From positions 2,046,001 to 2,110,000 of the forward strand of contig NZ_CP031217.1 in NCBI RefSeq assembly GCF_003346815.1: a DNA stretch of 64,000 bases. Direction: 5' to 3'. This stretch comes from Halarcobacter bivalviorum (GTDB taxonomy: Bacteria; Campylobacterota; Campylobacteria; Campylobacterales; Arcobacteraceae). The notes under the pieces are model-generated. The model searched no databases. It saw only the letters and a program-made list of their open reading frames with translations, and was not told the origin of the DNA. The translations under genes and the position numbers were made by a program. Positions 19,512 through 61,352 of the stretch are shown here, piece after piece; position 1 is the stretch's first letter; the number at the start of each line of letters is the position of its first letter.

Positions 19512-19532
19512 GGTTTACCCTACCCTTTTTTA
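19502..19532. terminator. Hairpin between convergent genes
   Basis: AAAAAGGTAAGG pairs imperfectly with CCCTACCCTTTTTT across the end of the three-TM gene and the mfd stop region; T-run on the plus strand. Confidence 0.45.
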
Positions 19533-22513
19533 TTTAAAAATTTTAATGTTGTTTCGATAATATCGTCATCATCTTTACTTGGACTTTTTATAGTCTCTTT
19601 AGTTTCATCGCTTTTTACAAATGTTATATTCATCTCATAAGATGAGATAGTTTTAATACCTTGACTAAGTGCAAGTATTTTTATAATAATAAGTTCTAAA
19701 AACTGTTTTGTTGGAATATCTGGCTTTCCAAATCTATCTTCCATCTCTTCTTCAATCTCATAAACTTCTTGTTTTGAATGACATTTAGAAAGTCTTCTAT
19801 AAAGCTCAAGTCTTACTCTATCCTCAACGATATAATCACTTGAAATAAAAGCAGAGATAGCTAGTTTAATATCAACAGTTTTAGCTTCCTCTTTTGTCTC
19901 TCCACTTAAACTAGCAAGGGCATCTTCTAGCATCTTTAAATATAGTCCATATCCTATTTGTTTGATATGACCACTTTGTGCTTCTCCAATAATATTTCCA
20001 CCACCTCTGATTTCTAAATCTTGGTGTGCTAAAGCTGTTCCACTCCCTAAATATGAGTTAGACTCTAAGGCTACTAATCTTTTTATTGCATCATTAGTGA
20101 TTTTCTTTTTATCTTCAACCACATAATAACAGAAACCTTCTTTGTCACTTCTACCAACTCTTCCTCTTAATTGGTGTAAATCAGCAATACCAAATCTATC
20201 AGCTCCATCAATAATAATTGAGTTTGCATTTGGTAAGTGAAGTCCTGATTCTACAATTGAAGTAGCAAGTAAAATATCAAACTCTTTATTATCAAACTTT
20301 TCAATAATCTCTTCAGCATCTTTTGGTTTAACTTTAGAATGAATAATCTCTATTTTAATATTTGGTACAATCTCTTCAATATCTGCTTTTTTTGCCTCTA
20401 TTGAAGCAATATTGTTGTGTACATAGAAAAGTTGTCCACCTCTTCTTTTTTCCCTTAAAATAATCTCTTTTATAAGTTTATCACTATACTCTTTTACATA
20501 AGTTCTAACACCTAATCTCTCCCTTGGAGGAGTAAGAAGTGAACTCATACCTTTTAGTTTTGAAAGGGCTAAATTTAGTGTTCTTGGAATTGGTGTTGCA
20601 CTCATAGAAAAAATGTGTACATCCTCTCTAAGCTCTTTTAATTTCTCTTTTTGTTTTACACCAAACTTATGCTCTTCATCAATAACTACAAGAGCTAAAT
20701 CTTTTGTCTTCACACCTAAAAGAGAGTGAGTTCCAACTACTAAATCTAAACTACCCTCTTCAAGTGATTTTTTAACTTCATTTTTCTCTTTTGCAGTTGA
20801 CTTTCCGTCAAGTTTAGCCATTCTTATACCAAACTCTTCAAATCTTTTTCTCATTCCATGGAAGTGTTGAGAAGCAAGTAAAGTTGTAGGACATACAAAA
20901 ATAGCTTGATGTCCTTCTAATACAGTTGCTAAGATTGCATTCATAGCTACTTCTGTTTTACCAAAACCAACATCTCCTGAAAGAAGTCTATCCATAACTC
21001 TTCCAGAACTTAAATCCTCAAAAATCTCCCTAACACTTCTTGTTTGGTCTTTCGTATATTCAAAACCTGCACTATTTTGGAAGTTTGCTAAAACCTGTTT
21101 TTCAGTATTTATCTTTATACCATTTACTAGCTCTCTTGCAGCAGCAAGTTTAATAATATCATTTGCAATTGCAAATAACTTATCTTTTACCTTCTCTTTT
21201 AGTTTGGCAAAACTTCCCTTACCTAACTTATCAACAACAGCATAAGAGTTTCCATCAGCTACATATCTATCAATTAAATCAATATTCTCAACAGGAATTA
21301 AAAGCTTATCATCCCCTGCATACATTACAATCACAAAATCTCTTTTTGCTCCCATAACAACTACAGGTTCAATTCCTCTATATTGACCAATACCATGAGT
21401 TTCATGAACTACAAAATCCCCTTCTTGTAACTCATCAAGAACTAATCGTACTCTTTTCTTTCTTCTTTTTTTAATCTCTTTATTAAGTGAAATAATTACT
21501 TCATCATTTCCTACAAGATTAATAATATAGTTTTCAAAAATATAATTAATATTTGAGTTTGAAAGCTCTAAATCAAAAGATTTTACTTTAGCTTCAGAAG
21601 AAGAGATAATAGTTACTTTTTTGTCTTCATGGAAAGTTAAAAACTCTTTTATATTTGCAGGAGCAACTTCTTGATAGTTTTTAGCCCTTCGTACTTGAGG
21701 TAGAGTCAAAAACTTCTCTTTTGCTACTCTTTTATCTTCAAAAACATAAACCTCTTCTAACTCATCTAAAGCCTCTAAGGTAACATATGAGTTTAGTTTT
21801 TGAGGTAAATACTCTCCTAATTCTCCTAAATACCAAAAACCTAAAGAGTGAATATCTTTAATAAAAGCATCACTTTCAACACTCTGTATTTGTTCATTTA
21901 TCTCTTCTAAAGCACTCTCTTCTAAGGCTAAAAAAGCAGGAGTAATTTTGAAACTCTCAATCTCCTCTTTTGAAGATTTTTGGTCTTCTATATCAAACTC
22001 TCTAATACTCTCTACTTCATCATCAAATAAAGAGATTCTATATCCAGTTTCACTTCCTAAAGGGCAGATATCTAGAATATCTCCTCTAATAGAAACCTCA
22101 GCTTCACTTGTAACAATATCTACAAAATAGTATCCCCAGTTATAAAGCTTTGTTTTTAACTCTTCTAAATTTAAAGTATCTGCAAAACTTATTTCAAAAG
22201 AGTCAAAACATTTATCTTTTGGCATAGGAAAAGAGGCTGTTCTAATAGGAGCAATTAAGATTTTGTCTTGTTTTTTATAAGAGTAGTACTCATTTAAAGC
22301 TTTTGTTATATCTTGAAGTTCAGTAGAAAAAGATAATAAATCATCTCCAAAATTTGCTCTAAAATCAGCAAGAGTAAAGGGTTTAAAACCTAAAAAAGAG
22401 ACAATATCACTTGCTATTTGAGCTTGTTTATCATCATTTACGATTAAAAGCTCACACTCTTTTAACTTCTTCTCTTCCTTTAAATTTTTTAAATACTCAT
22501 ATATGTTTTTCAC
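19520..22513 (-). CDS. mfd: Transcription-repair coupling factor Mfd
   Basis: Displaces RNA polymerase stalled at DNA damage and recruits UvrA. The 997-residue protein is slightly shorter than the E. coli form (1148). Visible parts in order: UvrB-like N-terminal region (1-330), RNA-polymerase-interacting domain with GDFVVHETHGIGQYRGIEP, SF2 helicase core with Walker A GDVGFGKT (about 512-519), DEEH box (about 611-614), SATPIPRTL, then the translocase motifs GRVGRSDKEGFCYYV, and the C-terminal TRCF domain. GTG start, sharing one base with the stop of the small gene upstream (TAGTG), so the pair is translationally coupled. Confidence 0.96.
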   Translation of the reverse strand: MKNIYEYLKNLKEEKKLKECELLIVNDDKQAQIASDIVSFLGFKPFTLADFRANFGDDLLSFSTELQDITKALNEYYSYKKQDKILIAPIRTASFPMPKDKCFDSFEISFADTLNLEELKTKLYNWGYYFVDIVTSEAEVSIRGDILDICPLGSETGYRISLFDDEVESIREFDIEDQKSSKEEIESFKITPAFLALEESALEEINEQIQSVESDAFIKDIHSLGFWYLGELGEYLPQKLNSYVTLEALDELEEVYVFEDKRVAKEKFLTLPQVRRAKNYQEVAPANIKEFLTFHEDKKVTIISSSEAKVKSFDLELSNSNINYIFENYIINLVGNDEVIISLNKEIKKRRKKRVRLVLDELQEGDFVVHETHGIGQYRGIEPVVVMGAKRDFVIVMYAGDDKLLIPVENIDLIDRYVADGNSYAVVDKLGKGSFAKLKEKVKDKLFAIANDIIKLAAARELVNGIKINTEKQVLANFQNSAGFEYTKDQTRSVREIFEDLSSGRVMDRLLSGDVGFGKTEVAMNAILATVLEGHQAIFVCPTTLLASQHFHGMRKRFEEFGIRMAKLDGKSTAKEKNEVKKSLEEGSLDLVVGTHSLLGVKTKDLALVVIDEEHKFGVKQKEKLKELREDVHIFSMSATPIPRTLNLALSKLKGMSSLLTPPRERLGVRTYVKEYSDKLIKEIILREKRRGGQLFYVHNNIASIEAKKADIEEIVPNIKIEIIHSKVKPKDAEEIIEKFDNKEFDILLATSIVESGLHLPNANSIIIDGADRFGIADLHQLRGRVGRSDKEGFCYYVVEDKKKITNDAIKRLVALESNSYLGSGTALAHQDLEIRGGGNIIGEAQSGHIKQIGYGLYLKMLEDALASLSGETKEEAKTVDIKLAISAFISSDYIVEDRVRLELYRRLSKCHSKQEVYEIEEEMEDRFGKPDIPTKQFLELIIIKILALSQGIKTISSYEMNITFVKSDETKETIKSPSKDDDDIIETTLKFLNKKG

Positions 22514-51119: not shown

Positions 51120-53234
51120 TTATAAATAGTGCATTTGCTTATACCCTTCAAGCCTTTTTTTATAAGCTGAATTAAGCATAGCATTTTTGTTATCTAGAAA
51201 ATCAATTGCTAAACACTCTTGATTTCCTCTTCCAATTCTTCCTAAATATTGAATCAATCTTCCATAATAGGAGATTGGAGTAGCAAATATAATCGTATTT
51301 AAATGAGGGAAATCTATTCCTTCACCAAAATATGAAGTAGTTGCTAAAATTAAACTTTTTTCTTCAATTAGTTTAATCTTTTCGCTTTGTTCTTTTTTAG
51401 TCATACTTCCATGAATAGAAACATAATCAAGCTCTTCTTTTTCTAACAGCCGTTCTAAAGCGTTGATATGTTCAATTCTATCAGTTAAAATTAAAATCTT
51501 TCTTTTTTGATGAAGCTTTATTTGATGAATAATTAAATTATTTCTTTTTTCATCTACACACAACTCATTTATGAGTGTTGCATAGTTATCAGCTTCACTA
51601 ACAAAGTCAGTTCGTATTATCTCTAATTTATTATTAAAAGTTTTTTTCTTTTTATACTCATAAGAAATATCCCCTAATTGTTGGAATAAAATAGGGTCTA
51701 ATCCATCTTTTCTTTTTGGTGTTGCACTAAGTCCTAAGATATATTTTCCGAAAAACTGTTTAACTATTTGTTCAAAAGTAACTGCTGGAATATGGTGACA
51801 CTCATCAACTATTACAAATGAGTAGTTATTTATGATATCTGGTATGTTTTTTAGACTCTGCATTGTAGCAACATCTATTTTTCCATTTAATTTATTTTTA
51901 CTTTTTCCCAAATAACCGATATCTGTTTTTTTATAATCAAAATATTCAACAAACCTATCTCTCCACTGGTCTAAAAGCATATTCTTATTTACAATAATCA
52001 AAGTAGAACAAGCTCGTTGCTCAAACATTTTTGCACCAAGAAGAGTTTTACCAAAACCAGGAGGAGCAACACAAATAGAAAATCTCTTTTTAAAGATTTT
52101 AGAAATAGCCTCTTTTTGTTCTTCCCTTAATTCATATAAAACTTTTTTTGTCTCAACTGCTTCAAAATAAGTTTTATCATCTATTTTAAAAGCAACTTGA
52201 TTCTCTTCAAAATATTTTGAAATTTTATATAATAAACCCCTTGGTAGTTTTAAATAGTTTTCATCTTCTTCAAAATTCTTTATCACTTTTGGAGTATTAT
52301 ATAAAGGTTTTCTAAGACTTAATAAAACTTTTATTTGAGGGTTATCAAAAGAGGCAAAGGATTTTAACTTAGTTATAAAACTTCTTGATAAGTTCAAAGT
52401 CGGAATATACAAATAATCGTAAAGTTTTATCTCTAACTTAAAAAGAGGAAACTCTATATCTTCAAACATTAAGTCAGTTGTATTTACTTTTTCAAAATCA
52501 TTATATTTTAAAACTATGCTCTTAGAAACTCTATTAATATTTTGTAAAAGCCTCCATTGGTCTTTATATACCTCTTTTGTATTTGGTTCAAAAAATACAG
52601 TTTTATTAGAGTCTCTAAATACTAAATGAAGAGGTAATTCAACTGCTTCATCAAAATTTCCTAAAGTTGCAAAATCTTTTGTGGGAAATATCTTAGCTGT
52701 GATATTTGATTTTTTTAAAATATATTGAGCAAAAGTTCTTACACTTTTTGTATCAAGATACTCTTCAAAAAATATCCAAACAAAAATTGAGTTATATGAA
52801 GTATATTCAAAAATAGCCTCAATATTTATAGAAGAAAAAGTTTTAAGTAAGGTGGGAATATCTTTTTGTAAAACTTCTAAAACTAAATATTTACTTTGAT
52901 TTAAAGAGTTAATTAAATATGAGGCAAGCTGAACTTTACCTCTTAAATGTAGTTCTACATCTTTGTTTGTTAGAGGTAAATAATCATTACCTCTAAAAGT
53001 TTGAGTTAAGGGATAAAAGGTTTGTTTTGAGCCATCTTTACTAATCCATTTTTTTGCAAAAATATCTGTTCTTGCAAAAAACAGAGATTTAAAAAGCTCT
53101 ATTTTTTCATCTTTAGTAAGATTTTTATTTCTATTTTGCTGTACTATAGTTTCAAGAGTCTTAATCTCTTCTTCTATAGCTATTTTTTGTTCATAAAGTT
53201 CTTTTAATCTTTCTTCTATTTTTTTATGATTCAT
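51120..53234 (-). CDS. TOTE-family primase-SF2 helicase with degenerate primase domain
   Basis: A 704-residue protein. A coiled coil (1-45) precedes an archaeo-eukaryotic-primase-like domain of the TOTE type (about 48-270): LFKSLFFARTDIFAKKW, FVWIFFEEYLDTKSVRTFA, LPLHLVFRDSNKTVFFEPN, YKDQWRLLQNINRVSK. An SF2 helicase (about 370-700) has Walker A APPGFGKTLL, IVDECHHIPA, LSATPKRKDG and IQYLGRIGRG. The primase catalytic DxD position reads LVLEVLQ and the GGH motif before VWIFF reads NSIF, so the active-site Asp and His seem lost while the helicase motifs are intact. It lies in a core operon, starting inside the bactofilin gene end. Confidence 0.75.
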   Translation of the reverse strand: MNHKKIEERLKELYEQKIAIEEEIKTLETIVQQNRNKNLTKDEKIELFKSLFFARTDIFAKKWISKDGSKQTFYPLTQTFRGNDYLPLTNKDVELHLRGKVQLASYLINSLNQSKYLVLEVLQKDIPTLLKTFSSINIEAIFEYTSYNSIFVWIFFEEYLDTKSVRTFAQYILKKSNITAKIFPTKDFATLGNFDEAVELPLHLVFRDSNKTVFFEPNTKEVYKDQWRLLQNINRVSKSIVLKYNDFEKVNTTDLMFEDIEFPLFKLEIKLYDYLYIPTLNLSRSFITKLKSFASFDNPQIKVLLSLRKPLYNTPKVIKNFEEDENYLKLPRGLLYKISKYFEENQVAFKIDDKTYFEAVETKKVLYELREEQKEAISKIFKKRFSICVAPPGFGKTLLGAKMFEQRACSTLIIVNKNMLLDQWRDRFVEYFDYKKTDIGYLGKSKNKLNGKIDVATMQSLKNIPDIINNYSFVIVDECHHIPAVTFEQIVKQFFGKYILGLSATPKRKDGLDPILFQQLGDISYEYKKKKTFNNKLEIIRTDFVSEADNYATLINELCVDEKRNNLIIHQIKLHQKRKILILTDRIEHINALERLLEKEELDYVSIHGSMTKKEQSEKIKLIEEKSLILATTSYFGEGIDFPHLNTIIFATPISYYGRLIQYLGRIGRGNQECLAIDFLDNKNAMLNSAYKKRLEGYKQMHYL

Positions 53235-53661
53235 GCTCAATTTGGTGAGACGGTGTAATTATGATATTATTAAGTTTATTCTCAATTTCATCATATCTAC
53301 TTTTTAGTTTTGAGCCTTTTCTAACACCATGCCCTTCAAACTTACCATCTTCTTCAATGCTTAATTCATTGTATTTCATATTTCCAATAACTTTTCCAGT
53401 TGAAAGAATTTGTACTTCATTACAATCAATTTTGCCATCTAAAAGACCACTAACAATTAAGTTATTTGCTTTAATATCACCTATTACTTCTCCTGTTTTA
53501 CCAATTGAAATAACATCAGCTTCTAAAATAACACCTTCAAATTTTCCATCGATATGAACTGTACCTTCAGTAGTAATTCCACCTATAATACAAGTTCCAT
53601 GGGCAATTACTGTAGCACCATTTTGTGCTGCTCGCTTATTAGCCTTACCAAAGATTCCCAC
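53224..53661 (-). CDS. Bactofilin (CcmA-like cytoskeletal protein)
   Basis: A 145-residue bactofilin: short N-terminal tail, then the right-handed beta-helix (residues about 16-115) with regular TEGTVHIDGKFEGVI, GEVIGDIKANNLIVSGLLDGKID, and GKVIGNMKYNELSIEEDGKFEGH repeats. Polymerises without nucleotide and positions peptidoglycan enzymes; in Helicobacter CcmA works with M23-type Csd proteins. GTG start with a strong AGGAGA 5-6 nt upstream, located inside the M23 peptidase gene (55-nt overlap in another frame). It is also overlapped at the 3' end by the TOTE gene. Confidence 0.92.
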   Translation of the reverse strand: MGIFGKANKRAAQNGATVIAHGTCIIGGITTEGTVHIDGKFEGVILEADVISIGKTGEVIGDIKANNLIVSGLLDGKIDCNEVQILSTGKVIGNMKYNELSIEEDGKFEGHGVRKGSKLKSRYDEIENKLNNIIITPSHQIEHES

Positions 53662-59732: not shown

Positions 59733-61352
59733 TTATTTTCGCCTTGTATTTTGGCGGATAGAGACTATTAATTGGTAGATTAAATAGGCGATTATGATTT
59801 TATAAATTAATGTTCCAAAAGATAACTCTTCACCTTTTGTCATAATAGAAAATGGATTAATCATATTTGAAAACTCTTTTAAATTGCTATCATTAACATA
59901 ACTATTTGAATAAAAGAGGTAAATACAAATTGTTGAAATTATAATTGCAATATTTCGATAAAACTCATTAAACTTAGAGATAATAACACCAACTAGAAGT
60001 AAACCTCCAAAAAAAACTAATCCTTTATCGATATGTTTAACAATATCTGCACAAAATAATTCATGGCTTAAATATGTTGTAATAAAAGTTAGATTTATTA
60101 TCCAAAATAAAGCTAGTAACCATTCTTGAGAATGATTTGAAGCTAGACTATGAGTTTTAAAAATAACCCAGTCAAACCACTTTTTCTCTTTTATAAAGTC
60201 ATCTTCTGCTTTTTCCATTTCTATTGCATAATACTTATTTGCTTCAATTATATTGTTTTGTTGTTCAAAAGAATCTTTTATAATTCTTGCAGTTTCACGG
60301 TTTTTAATACCAAAAAATTTAAATTTTAAGAAATTTGCTTTTTCAAAAAAGTTTGTAGATAAATCAACATTTGAATTAAATTTAACTTCTTTCAATGCTA
60401 TTAAATTATTAAAAGATGAAGTTTCAATTGTATTTTTTTCTATAATAATATTTGACAGTTTTAAATTTTTACTAAAAACAGAATCTTTTAAACAAAGTTT
60501 TTCTATTTTATTATCTTTTATACTAACAGAACCTTGAAATATGGTTTTTATAATAATTAACTTTTTTATCTTTGAATCAATATAAGTATCAAAATCTATA
60601 TTAGAATTAATATCTGATTCTGAAAACATGACTTCAGTAGAGTTAAAGATACAGTTTTTAATTAAAGCATTAGATTCGGTATAAACTTTACAAAATTCTA
60701 GCCTTTCGTCAAAATGACATTCTCTAAATAACTTTGATGATATATAAAGTTTTTCTTCTTTTAAAGAATTTAATAAAACTATCCCATGAAATTTACAGTT
60801 ATGAAAAATAAAAGAGTTATCGATTTCTTTAAAATTATTAGTTATTGAAAATTTCTTATAAAATTCACAACCTATAAATACAACCTCTTTCTCATTTGTA
60901 TTAATAGTACAATGGATAAACTTACAATTTTTTTGAAATACAAACTGATTTGAAATACAATTAATTGGGATGATTACATTTTCTAAAAAAGTACAATTAT
61001 TAAAAATAACTGGAGCATTAGTCTTGATATTTGATAAAATATTAATGGATGTATCTTCAAAAGGTGAATATATAGCTTTCTTATTTCTATTAAAATTAGG
61101 GAATTCTATATCATTAAATTCATAAGCTTTATAATCCCCCTCTTCCAATTCTTTATTAGATTTATTTATCTTGTCAATAGTACCTTCTAATTCAATCCAA
61201 AAAGAATTTTTATTATAATTATTTTGTTTTTTTGGTAAATTTTCCCAATCTTTTTTTTCACAATGTAAAATACATTTAGTTTTGTCATTTGTTAATTTAA
61301 ATTCTTCTTCGTCAACTTCTTTACCACATATACTACAAATATTTTCTGACAT
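59733..61352 (-). CDS. Zinc-ribbon / pentapeptide-like beta-helix protein with four C-terminal TM helices
   Basis: A 539-residue protein. A small zinc ribbon at the front (ICSICGKEVDEEEF, then CILHCEKKDW). Residues about 70-360 have a pentapeptide-like solenoid pattern (FNNCTFLENVIIP, FQKNCKFIHCTI, VFIGCEFYKKFSIT, FIFHNCKFHG, LIKNCIFNSTEVMFSESDI). The last 170 residues hold about four TM helices and the module shared with the next gene. Such proteins are widespread and uncharacterised; a signal-gated channel is one idea. ATG start at 61352 with AGGAA about 7 nt upstream. Confidence 0.65.
   Translation of the reverse strand: MSENICSICGKEVDEEEFKLTNDKTKCILHCEKKDWENLPKKQNNYNKNSFWIELEGTIDKINKSNKELEEGDYKAYEFNDIEFPNFNRNKKAIYSPFEDTSINILSNIKTNAPVIFNNCTFLENVIIPINCISNQFVFQKNCKFIHCTINTNEKEVVFIGCEFYKKFSITNNFKEIDNSFIFHNCKFHGIVLLNSLKEEKLYISSKLFRECHFDERLEFCKVYTESNALIKNCIFNSTEVMFSESDINSNIDFDTYIDSKIKKLIIIKTIFQGSVSIKDNKIEKLCLKDSVFSKNLKLSNIIIEKNTIETSSFNNLIALKEVKFNSNVDLSTNFFEKANFLKFKFFGIKNRETARIIKDSFEQQNNIIEANKYYAIEMEKAEDDFIKEKKWFDWVIFKTHSLASNHSQEWLLALFWIINLTFITTYLSHELFCADIVKHIDKGLVFFGGLLLVGVIISKFNEFYRNIAIIISTICIYLFYSNSYVNDSNLKEFSNMINPFSIMTKGEELSFGTLIYKIIIAYLIYQLIVSIRQNTRRK

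Follow-up and report, generated by a model that had tools for sequence, protein, structure and literature searches.

Prim-Pol domains of the AEP-TOTE family (Pfam ID PF22548) are found in Campylobacterota in proteins that combine an N-terminal helix, the AEP domain, and an XPB-like helicase, in this order (e.g., locus L069, or locus L203 of Arcobacter vandammei). The subject of this work is a degenerate protein of the same layout from Halarcobacter bivalviorum, whose genome is a single 2.68-Mb contig; the gene lies in a stretch of 64,000 nucleotides (NZ_CP031217.1, positions 2,046,001 to 2,110,000), hereafter the window. Its intact relatives, which form the sister clade, are 33 to 43% identical to the window protein where one full-length stretch aligns, but differ in that they retain the catalytic residues Asp, Asp, His, and Asp, have AbiEi/AbiEii or AAA_14-type neighbors, and occur sporadically.

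Several other described systems share parts of this architecture. The CAPP proteins of Marinitoga (Protein Data Bank entries 7nqd, 7nqf, and 7p9j) have the same Prim-Pol fold as the predicted model of the window domain (Z of 24, 2.1 to 2.4 Å), but they are catalytic, and the Marinitoga type is described in sections of PMC8211822 as carrying TPR instead of a helicase. Against the CRISPR-associated Prim-Pol A1 model (NF040561), the window protein scores 80.3 bits, below the cut-off of 200. T4 UvsW and archaeal XPB have the same helicase core and N-terminal accessory domain (Z of 22 to 26), whereas their aligned chains contain no counterpart of the Prim-Pol domain and are only ∼20% identical to the window protein. 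RecG, which combines a superfamily 2 (SF2) motor with a junction-binding domain, occupies the niche proposed below; its model NF008168 matches only the helicase part of the window protein (E = 0.0013, 17 bits against 718), which places the latter outside the RecG family. Finally, HP0184/DUF1882 (PF08966; structure 2atz), whose AEP membership has already been described (parts of PMC8065100; table in PMC3397514), resembles the window domain in having the AEP fold with degenerate motifs I and III, but is a stand-alone protein of 180 amino acids (aa) that keeps the motif II His and is encoded in a glyA-SPOR-like locus (five loci looked at).

The Prim-Pol domain and its former active site

The window protein is very probably a dead primase fold attached to an intact-looking, domesticated helicase. 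Its features, with residues counted from the TTG start, are as follows.

51120..53240, minus strand: degenerate TOTE primase-helicase gene, 706 aa, TTG start at 53240; PF22548, ResIII, and Helicase_C
53136..53234, minus strand: long N-terminal helix, coiled-coil-like, residues 3-35; helix in the predicted model
52485..53123, minus strand: predicted catalytically dead AEP/Prim-Pol domain, residues 40-252; PF22548, predicted fold like that of CAPP Prim-Pol
52869..52877, minus strand: former motif I DxD, now E122-V123-L124, by alignment
52776..52799, minus strand: former motif II SGxGxHxW, now SYNSIFVW, residues 148-155, by alignment
52683..52706, minus strand: former motif III (SYDRMFP), acid gone beside a 9-residue deletion, residues 179-186, by alignment
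52221..52442, minus strand: N-terminal helicase accessory domain, residues 267-340, by structural alignment with XPB and T4 UvsW at their N termini
51651..52220, minus strand: RecA-like domain 1, residues 341-530 (APPGFGKT 392-399, DECHH 479-483, LSATP 504-508)
51123..51650, minus strand: RecA-like domain 2, residues 531-706 (motif VI QYLGRIGR 664-671)

An earlier note, made from the letters of this DNA, had proposed a TOTE-type primase-helicase at 51120-53234. The Pfam matches agree with this assignment: PF22548 covers residues 45-243 (E = 3e-41, 142 bits against a cut-off of 27), ResIII residues 369-510, and Helicase_C residues 569-672. The coordinates need a small extension, as the ATG at 53234 is an alternative start but the open reading frame continues to the TTG at 53240, two codons before it; the gene overlaps the end of the bactofilin gene, stop codon included.

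The Prim-Pol motifs are defined, in the pertinent part of PMC10345425, as hhhDhD/E (motif I), sxH (motif II), and hD/E (motif III). Aligned against 11 intact TOTE proteins and MsCAPP (7nqf), the window protein proved to have lost all three. Motif I, IDLDK in the intact proteins, reads LEVLQ (E122 and L124); motif II, SGNGIHIW, reads SYNSIFVW, with both glycines gone and the His replaced by F153; and motif III, SYDRMFPNQ, is reduced to KIFPTK (within TAKIFP), with no acidic residue and with a 9-residue deletion just before it. R104, G106, D122, D124, G149, G151, H153, R183, and Q188 are among the positions that are invariant in the intact proteins and lost here. The claims that the DxD metal site (seen as VLEVLQ) and a motif before VWIFF had disappeared are thus upheld, save that the latter, given as GGH, is better written SGxGxH; intact acids or a His in the primase fold, which would have contradicted these claims, were looked for and not found.

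The same loss is seen across the family Arcobacteraceae, in which 79 copies with an AEP-like region occupy one fixed locus (described below). These include the window protein, four shrunken copies (L077-L080, group g20), and copies cut by a contig end (L096), with a frame break (L095), or with an in-frame stop (L108); the last of these, from genome G059, has a single in-frame TAG. Both motif I acids are kept in none of the 79. The first position is occupied by Glu in 66 copies, Lys in 5, Gln in 4, Ser in 2, and Cys in 2; the second is acidic in 3 copies, never together with an acidic first position. The motif II His is retained in 3 copies (L076, L101, and L102), all early branches of the helicase tree, and the column of the intact motif III acid is a gap in all 79, as opposed to the intact relatives in the same alignment, where 11 of 11 retain all four catalytic residues. 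The motif III acid of MsCAPP may be the Glu one column further on. That column is acidic (Glu or Asp) in 5 copies (L077-L080 and L102), none of which has both motif I acids, and holds K183 in the window protein. A second, named set comprised 80 loci from largely the same species in another alignment, with 9 rows lacking all or part of the region; since its members were the 80 top-ranking of 130 loci, scored by similarity to an intact protein, it favors intact forms. Here, Asp, Asp, His, and Asp were present in all 40 relatives that could be read away from the fixed locus versus none of the 31 at it, where the motif III column contained Ala, Gly, Val, or Phe and never an acid. Judging from these alignments, no fixed-locus copy that was read retains the Prim-Pol active site.

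The fold itself appears to have survived. In the full-length model (35 sequences; mean predicted local distance difference test [pLDDT] score of 87, predicted template modeling [pTM] score of 0.50), residues 40-254 match CAPP Prim-Pol structures with Z of 23.6 to 24.0 and a root mean square deviation (rmsd) of 2.2 to 2.4 Å over 194 to 196 residues. The AEP domain modeled alone (pLDDT of 94) matches CAPP with Z of 23.8 and 2.1 Å over 188 residues, followed by HP0184 (2atz; Z of 12.6) and then Prim-PolC and LigD. The model thus suggests that the Prim-Pol fold is still standing with its catalytic residues gone.

The helicase motifs, described as intact in the earlier note, are so across the family: APPGFGKT is found in 85, DECHH in 89, and LSATP in 90 of 91 copies. 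The window protein contains the Walker A, DExH, SAT, and VI motifs of an XPB/UvsW-type SF2 helicase, together with a motor and N-terminal accessory fold in the model. The modeled helicase part (residues 267-698) aligns with XPB (6p4f) with Z of 25.7 and an rmsd of 4.7 Å over 378 residues; residues 267-529 align with T4 UvsW (1rif) with Z of 22.4 and 3.8 Å over 247 residues. A second UvsW entry, 2oca, matches with the same Z of 22.4 but an rmsd of 17.3 Å. The modeled accessory domain ranges start at residues 265-270, opposite chain residues ∼0-3 of Sulfolobus tokodaii XPBII and residue 1 of UvsW.

Probable conflict origin, descent, and selection

Eleven intact loci (L064-L074) come from whole genomes, four of them from Arcobacteraceae. 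In all 11, the gene has either an AbiEi/AbiEii pair or an ATPase of the AAA_14 type nearby, albeit in L072 by a 25% match; the labels of such neighbors are AbiEii (PF08843, 1e-31), AbiEi (PADLOC, 9e-60), and AAA_14 (4e-23 to 6e-31). Another 44 named loci, many on short contigs, include 11 with an AbiE/AAA_14-type gene and two (L212 and L277) with a fragment; five of these 11 (L199, L200, L203, L205, and L210) represent the same contigs as L070, L071, L068, L065, and L066. Among 14 loci from other phyla, none had more than a fragment of such a gene, and none of the 92 regions at the fixed locus matched any of five AbiE/AAA_14 query proteins at 1e-5, a search confined to those five proteins and thus not a full defense scan. 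The neighbors of the intact relatives support an origin of this gene in a conflict system, as the earlier note had held; the description of TOTE as a conflict system is taken here from the Pfam title alone, and PMC7159879 contains no mention of TOTE, AEP, or primase. A phage source was considered and dropped: the N-terminal 247 aa had no relative in viral contigs (12 stretches matched a pattern, none of them confirmed). Nothing on this gene appeared among the entries seen in literature listings on Arcobacter helicases and bactofilin, inactive AEPs, and Arcobacter essential genes.

Together with the AbiEi/AbiEii pair, the intact TOTE gene recurs in Campylobacterota as a candidate module of three genes (L067-L071, L073, L074, L199-L201, L203, L204, and L213), several of these loci being the same contigs in two collections. 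An alternative neighbor of the intact gene is an AAA_14-type ATPase directly upstream (L064-L066, L205, L210, L214, and L232). Four genomes (G001, G006, G012, and G029) carry both an intact-type and a degenerate copy, the intact-type copy being broken in G012; in Arcobacter vandammei (G029; L203 and L251), both forms are present.

In a tree of 82 chosen rows, built on 416 columns of the helicase alignment with other phyla as the outgroup and with a long-branch warning for rows that include L072 and L076, the degenerate copies from the fixed locus form one clade (support 100/100), with the intact Campylobacterota proteins as its sister (100/94). Repeated, independent inactivation is disfavored by this single clade. 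The copies without an AEP domain likewise form one clade (98/90), inside the degenerate clade, where the shrunken form of 650 aa is their neighbor (100/97). They begin with a helix-like stretch, which in L081 and L083-L092 is similar to the long N-terminal helix of the window protein, and then align with that protein from residue ∼270, where the XPB/UvsW-like part starts. Helicase and LeuS trees of 76 loci have 40 of 73 splits in common, against a mean of 0.2 and a maximum of 2 in shuffles. These comparisons of sequences support a single domestication followed by vertical descent with the locus, during which the helicase was kept.

In pooled Nei-Gojobori counts from 31 disjoint pairs with synonymous divergence (dS) of 0.1 to 0.9, the AEP domain has an omega of 0.165, compared with 0.101 in the helicase and 0.387 in the coil. 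Values from all pairs up to a dS of 1.6 (0.331 for AEP and 0.182 for helicase) were set aside because saturated dS distorts them. As omega in three intact pairs is 0.068 for the AEP domain (0.069 for the helicase), the dead domain is under relaxed but clear purifying selection. Its N-terminal half is best conserved, with a mean majority frequency of 0.76 at positions 45-111 versus 0.64 at 112-160 and 0.67 at 161-243; F50, F54, H98, L99, and G101 are invariant across 74 degenerate copies. The view that the gene had been domesticated as a helicase is correct in that the helicase was kept, but is an understatement, since selection also acts on the dead domain, even if one sublineage has dropped it.

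Distribution and genomic neighborhood

The gene is present in 92 of 104 Arcobacteraceae genomes, with an AEP-like region in 79 and without it in 13. The 12 genomes that lack it are G018, G035, G037-G042, G051, G070, G074, and G098, of which G018, G051, G074, and G098 are only 54 to 86% complete. A class-wide sample of 397 genomes, searched with the helicase at E ≤ 1e-25, yielded 39 of the 42 family members and 7 others, all 7 with intact motifs. The genes around the window copy are as follows.

53224..53661, minus strand: bactofilin, directly upstream of the primase-helicase gene; PF04519
53607..54548, minus strand: M23 peptidase; PF01551
54538..55707, minus strand: folC; TIGR01499
55708..56217, minus strand: lptE-like; PF04390
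56219..58684, minus strand: leuS; TIGR00396
49470..51107, minus strand: KefB-like Na/H exchanger with TrkA_N, downstream neighbor; PF00999, PF02254

Besides the window, 92 loci were fetched, two of which are pieces of one genome (G052). In 81 of these, the gene lies directly downstream of, and on the same strand as, either bactofilin (47 loci; gap of at most 166 bases) or folC (34 loci; at most 130 bases), and kefB follows on the same strand in 56 of the 92. The other 11 are the 3′ piece of the G052 gene (L093) and ten AEP-less copies (L082-L091), of which five (L086-L090) have moved beside der (EngA) and two, L082 and L084, start close to a contig end. The survey of Arcobacteraceae that the earlier note had recommended therefore indicates a degenerate form inherited vertically, with a LeuS-like tree, at essentially one locus. 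The link to cell-shape genes drawn there is weak: at 34 of the 92 loci folC and the gene are not separated by an M23/bactofilin pair, and der is the neighbor of five AEP-less copies. A function tied to bactofilin/M23 is weakened by the same 34 loci. The steadier neighbor of the gene is leuS-lptE-folC.

In G035, the bactofilin-kefB gap of ∼410 bases shows a weak, stop-interrupted likeness to the N terminus of the protein (best E of 0.005 at an assumed database size), probably a remnant of the helicase gene (L188, 8900-9352). Elsewhere in the window, positions 59733-61352 encode a 539-aa protein that has no Pfam match at 1e-4 and looks pentapeptide-like by eye.

Apparent absence of RecG and the candidate functions

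Arcobacteraceae appear to lack RecG. The Pfam wedge model, too weak a probe for this class, matched 16 of 101 genomes, so a complete RecG protein (L318; NF008169, 894 bits) was used in its place. This query found RecG in all 23 chosen Campylobacteria genomes outside the family (E ≤ 4e-136, frames of ∼580 to 700 aa) but in none of 24 Arcobacteraceae genomes, each of which had a single match (E of 9e-32 to 4e-48) in a frame of ∼1,000 aa, or 410 aa in the case of G041. At a threshold of 1e-40, 91 of the 104 family genomes give one match, always in a frame of 963 to 1,018 aa, the size of Mfd, and 13 give none; the match in the window (19520-22513) is Mfd itself (TIGR00580). The intact-TOTE genomes G208, G290, G352, G373, and G413 do have RecG. 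The name recG does not occur in the available text of the A. butzleri genome paper (PMC2147049).

The preferred history is as follows. A TOTE-type primase-helicase of the kind that has AbiE/AAA_14 neighbors was very probably fixed once beside folC in the ancestor of Arcobacteraceae and domesticated there; one sublineage later dropped the Prim-Pol domain, keeping the N-terminal helix and the helicase. As a DNA helicase of the UvsW/XPB type powered by ATP, the protein might occupy the niche of RecG and remodel replication intermediates that are branched or stalled; the dead Prim-Pol domain would be a wedge that binds DNA independently of metal and keeps the motor at junctions of single- and double-stranded DNA. 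A DNA-binding role of the remnant is suggested by its conserved N-terminal half, because DNA binding by eukaryotic PrimPol is N-terminal, with analogous motifs in CAPP, and is thought to be metal independent (PMC10345425, section 6); such a role is given an even chance. Replacement of RecG is the leading functional guess, prompted by the absence of RecG from the tested Arcobacteraceae, the status of UvsW as a functional analogue of RecG (according to a portion of PMC3778716), and the RecG wedge domain, which contacts the junction in the excerpts consulted; it is a tentative guess, placed clearly below even. The entire sequence of steps, from dead primase through domesticated helicase and DNA-binding wedge to a RecG-like role, comes somewhat closer to an even chance but does not reach it. 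The boldest version, in which Arcobacteraceae swapped RecG for a domesticated anti-invader primase-helicase whose inactivated primase became the junction-binding wedge, so that a defense protein was captured into core genome maintenance, is possible but on balance unlikely.

Several observations weigh against this proposal. The pTM of the full-length model leaves the placing of the domains unsure. The model resembles XPB more closely than UvsW, and repair roles of the XPB/RadD type would fit as well. Of the 50 supported helicase splits, 8 clash with supported LeuS splits, and the deletion of the AEP domain in the L081-L092 lineage shows it to be dispensable there. The absence of RecG is wider than the presence of the helicase, as 8 of the 24 tested Arcobacteraceae (G035, G037-G042, and G070) have neither; moreover, the pattern of presence and absence spans approximately one branch, so the correlation may reflect a single event.

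If the dead Prim-Pol domain is not a DNA-binding wedge, it could regulate the helicase, as a module that senses nucleotides or binds another protein. Purifying selection on a domain without an active site would be compatible with this, as would the near-fixation of E96 (1.00) and R100 (0.99) in 74 copies, at positions where intact proteins mostly have Gln and Glu. HP0184/DUF1882, another degenerate AEP family, which occurs widely in the class but gave no match in Arcobacteraceae, would likewise fit a shared noncatalytic role. Nevertheless, motif II, part of the nucleotide site according to the cited portion of PMC10345425, is lost, as are R104, G106, and R183, all invariant in intact proteins, and no partner is known, which makes a regulatory module unlikely. 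Alternatively, the protein might still be directed against invaders, as a helicase-only defense factor fixed in the chromosome that no longer needs its primase; its relatives lie near AbiE, AAA_14, and other PADLOC-listed genes, and the PADLOC PrimPol model PDLC01465 matches the window protein at 3e-27. This reading is rendered less likely still by the lack of matches to the five AbiE/AAA_14 proteins at the fixed locus (within the limits of that search), by descent with LeuS, and by its presence in 92 of 104 genomes, which contrasts with the patchiness of the intact form.

A primase that still works with substitute residues, such as E122 with other acids, is very improbable. Glu at the first position of motif I in most copies and an acid one column past the motif III acid in five could be read in its favor, but the first position is Lys, Gln, Ser, or Cys in the other 13 copies, the second is nonacidic in 76, the intact motif III acid is missing throughout, and alternative residues were rejected column by column; in MpCAPP, the D177A and D179A changes together abolish activity, as stated in an excerpt of PMC8211822. 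Equally improbable is a decaying relic without function. Signs of decay exist in the probable G035 remnant, the erosion in L077-L080, the deletion in L081-L092, and the in-frame stop in G059, yet the omega values of the helicase and AEP domains in the 31 pairs reject neutral decay, the helicase motifs are intact, and the gene is retained in most of the family.

The distribution of DUF1882 in the class is a further point of comparison. A class-wide search of the 397 genomes, which served as the positive control, detected it in 307, versus 0 of 104 Arcobacteraceae. An alignment of 37 loci (L279-L284 and L286-L315; 34 distinct genes) and the 2atz reference, 38 rows in all, had motif I as hDYN in 37 rows and as LEYE in one; the HLH of motif II was kept in 37, and Trp occupied the place of the motif III acid in 37, with Glu just before it in 18. 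H. pylori HP0184 has been called nonessential (in a part of PMC6294363). DUF1882 follows glyA in five loci elsewhere; in the window genome, a SPOR gene lies ∼35 bases after one glyA, and the interval holds no DUF1882. That genome has two glyA copies (L316 and L317), equally similar to the query (84%), with a SPOR gene after one only. The complementarity between DUF1882 and the window gene is family-wide and may be a coincidence.

Whatever the function of the domesticated helicase, an erosion series is visible within one family: active primase, dead primase, shrunken domain, and deleted domain. It traces the likely course of a conflict-system enzyme into a core genome, with active-looking relatives, a single loss of the active site, selection on the dead domain, and its removal in one sublineage. 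If the link to RecG is true, the gene would illustrate a way for a bacterial family to do without RecG and would offer a case in which to test the reuse of a primase fold for DNA binding.

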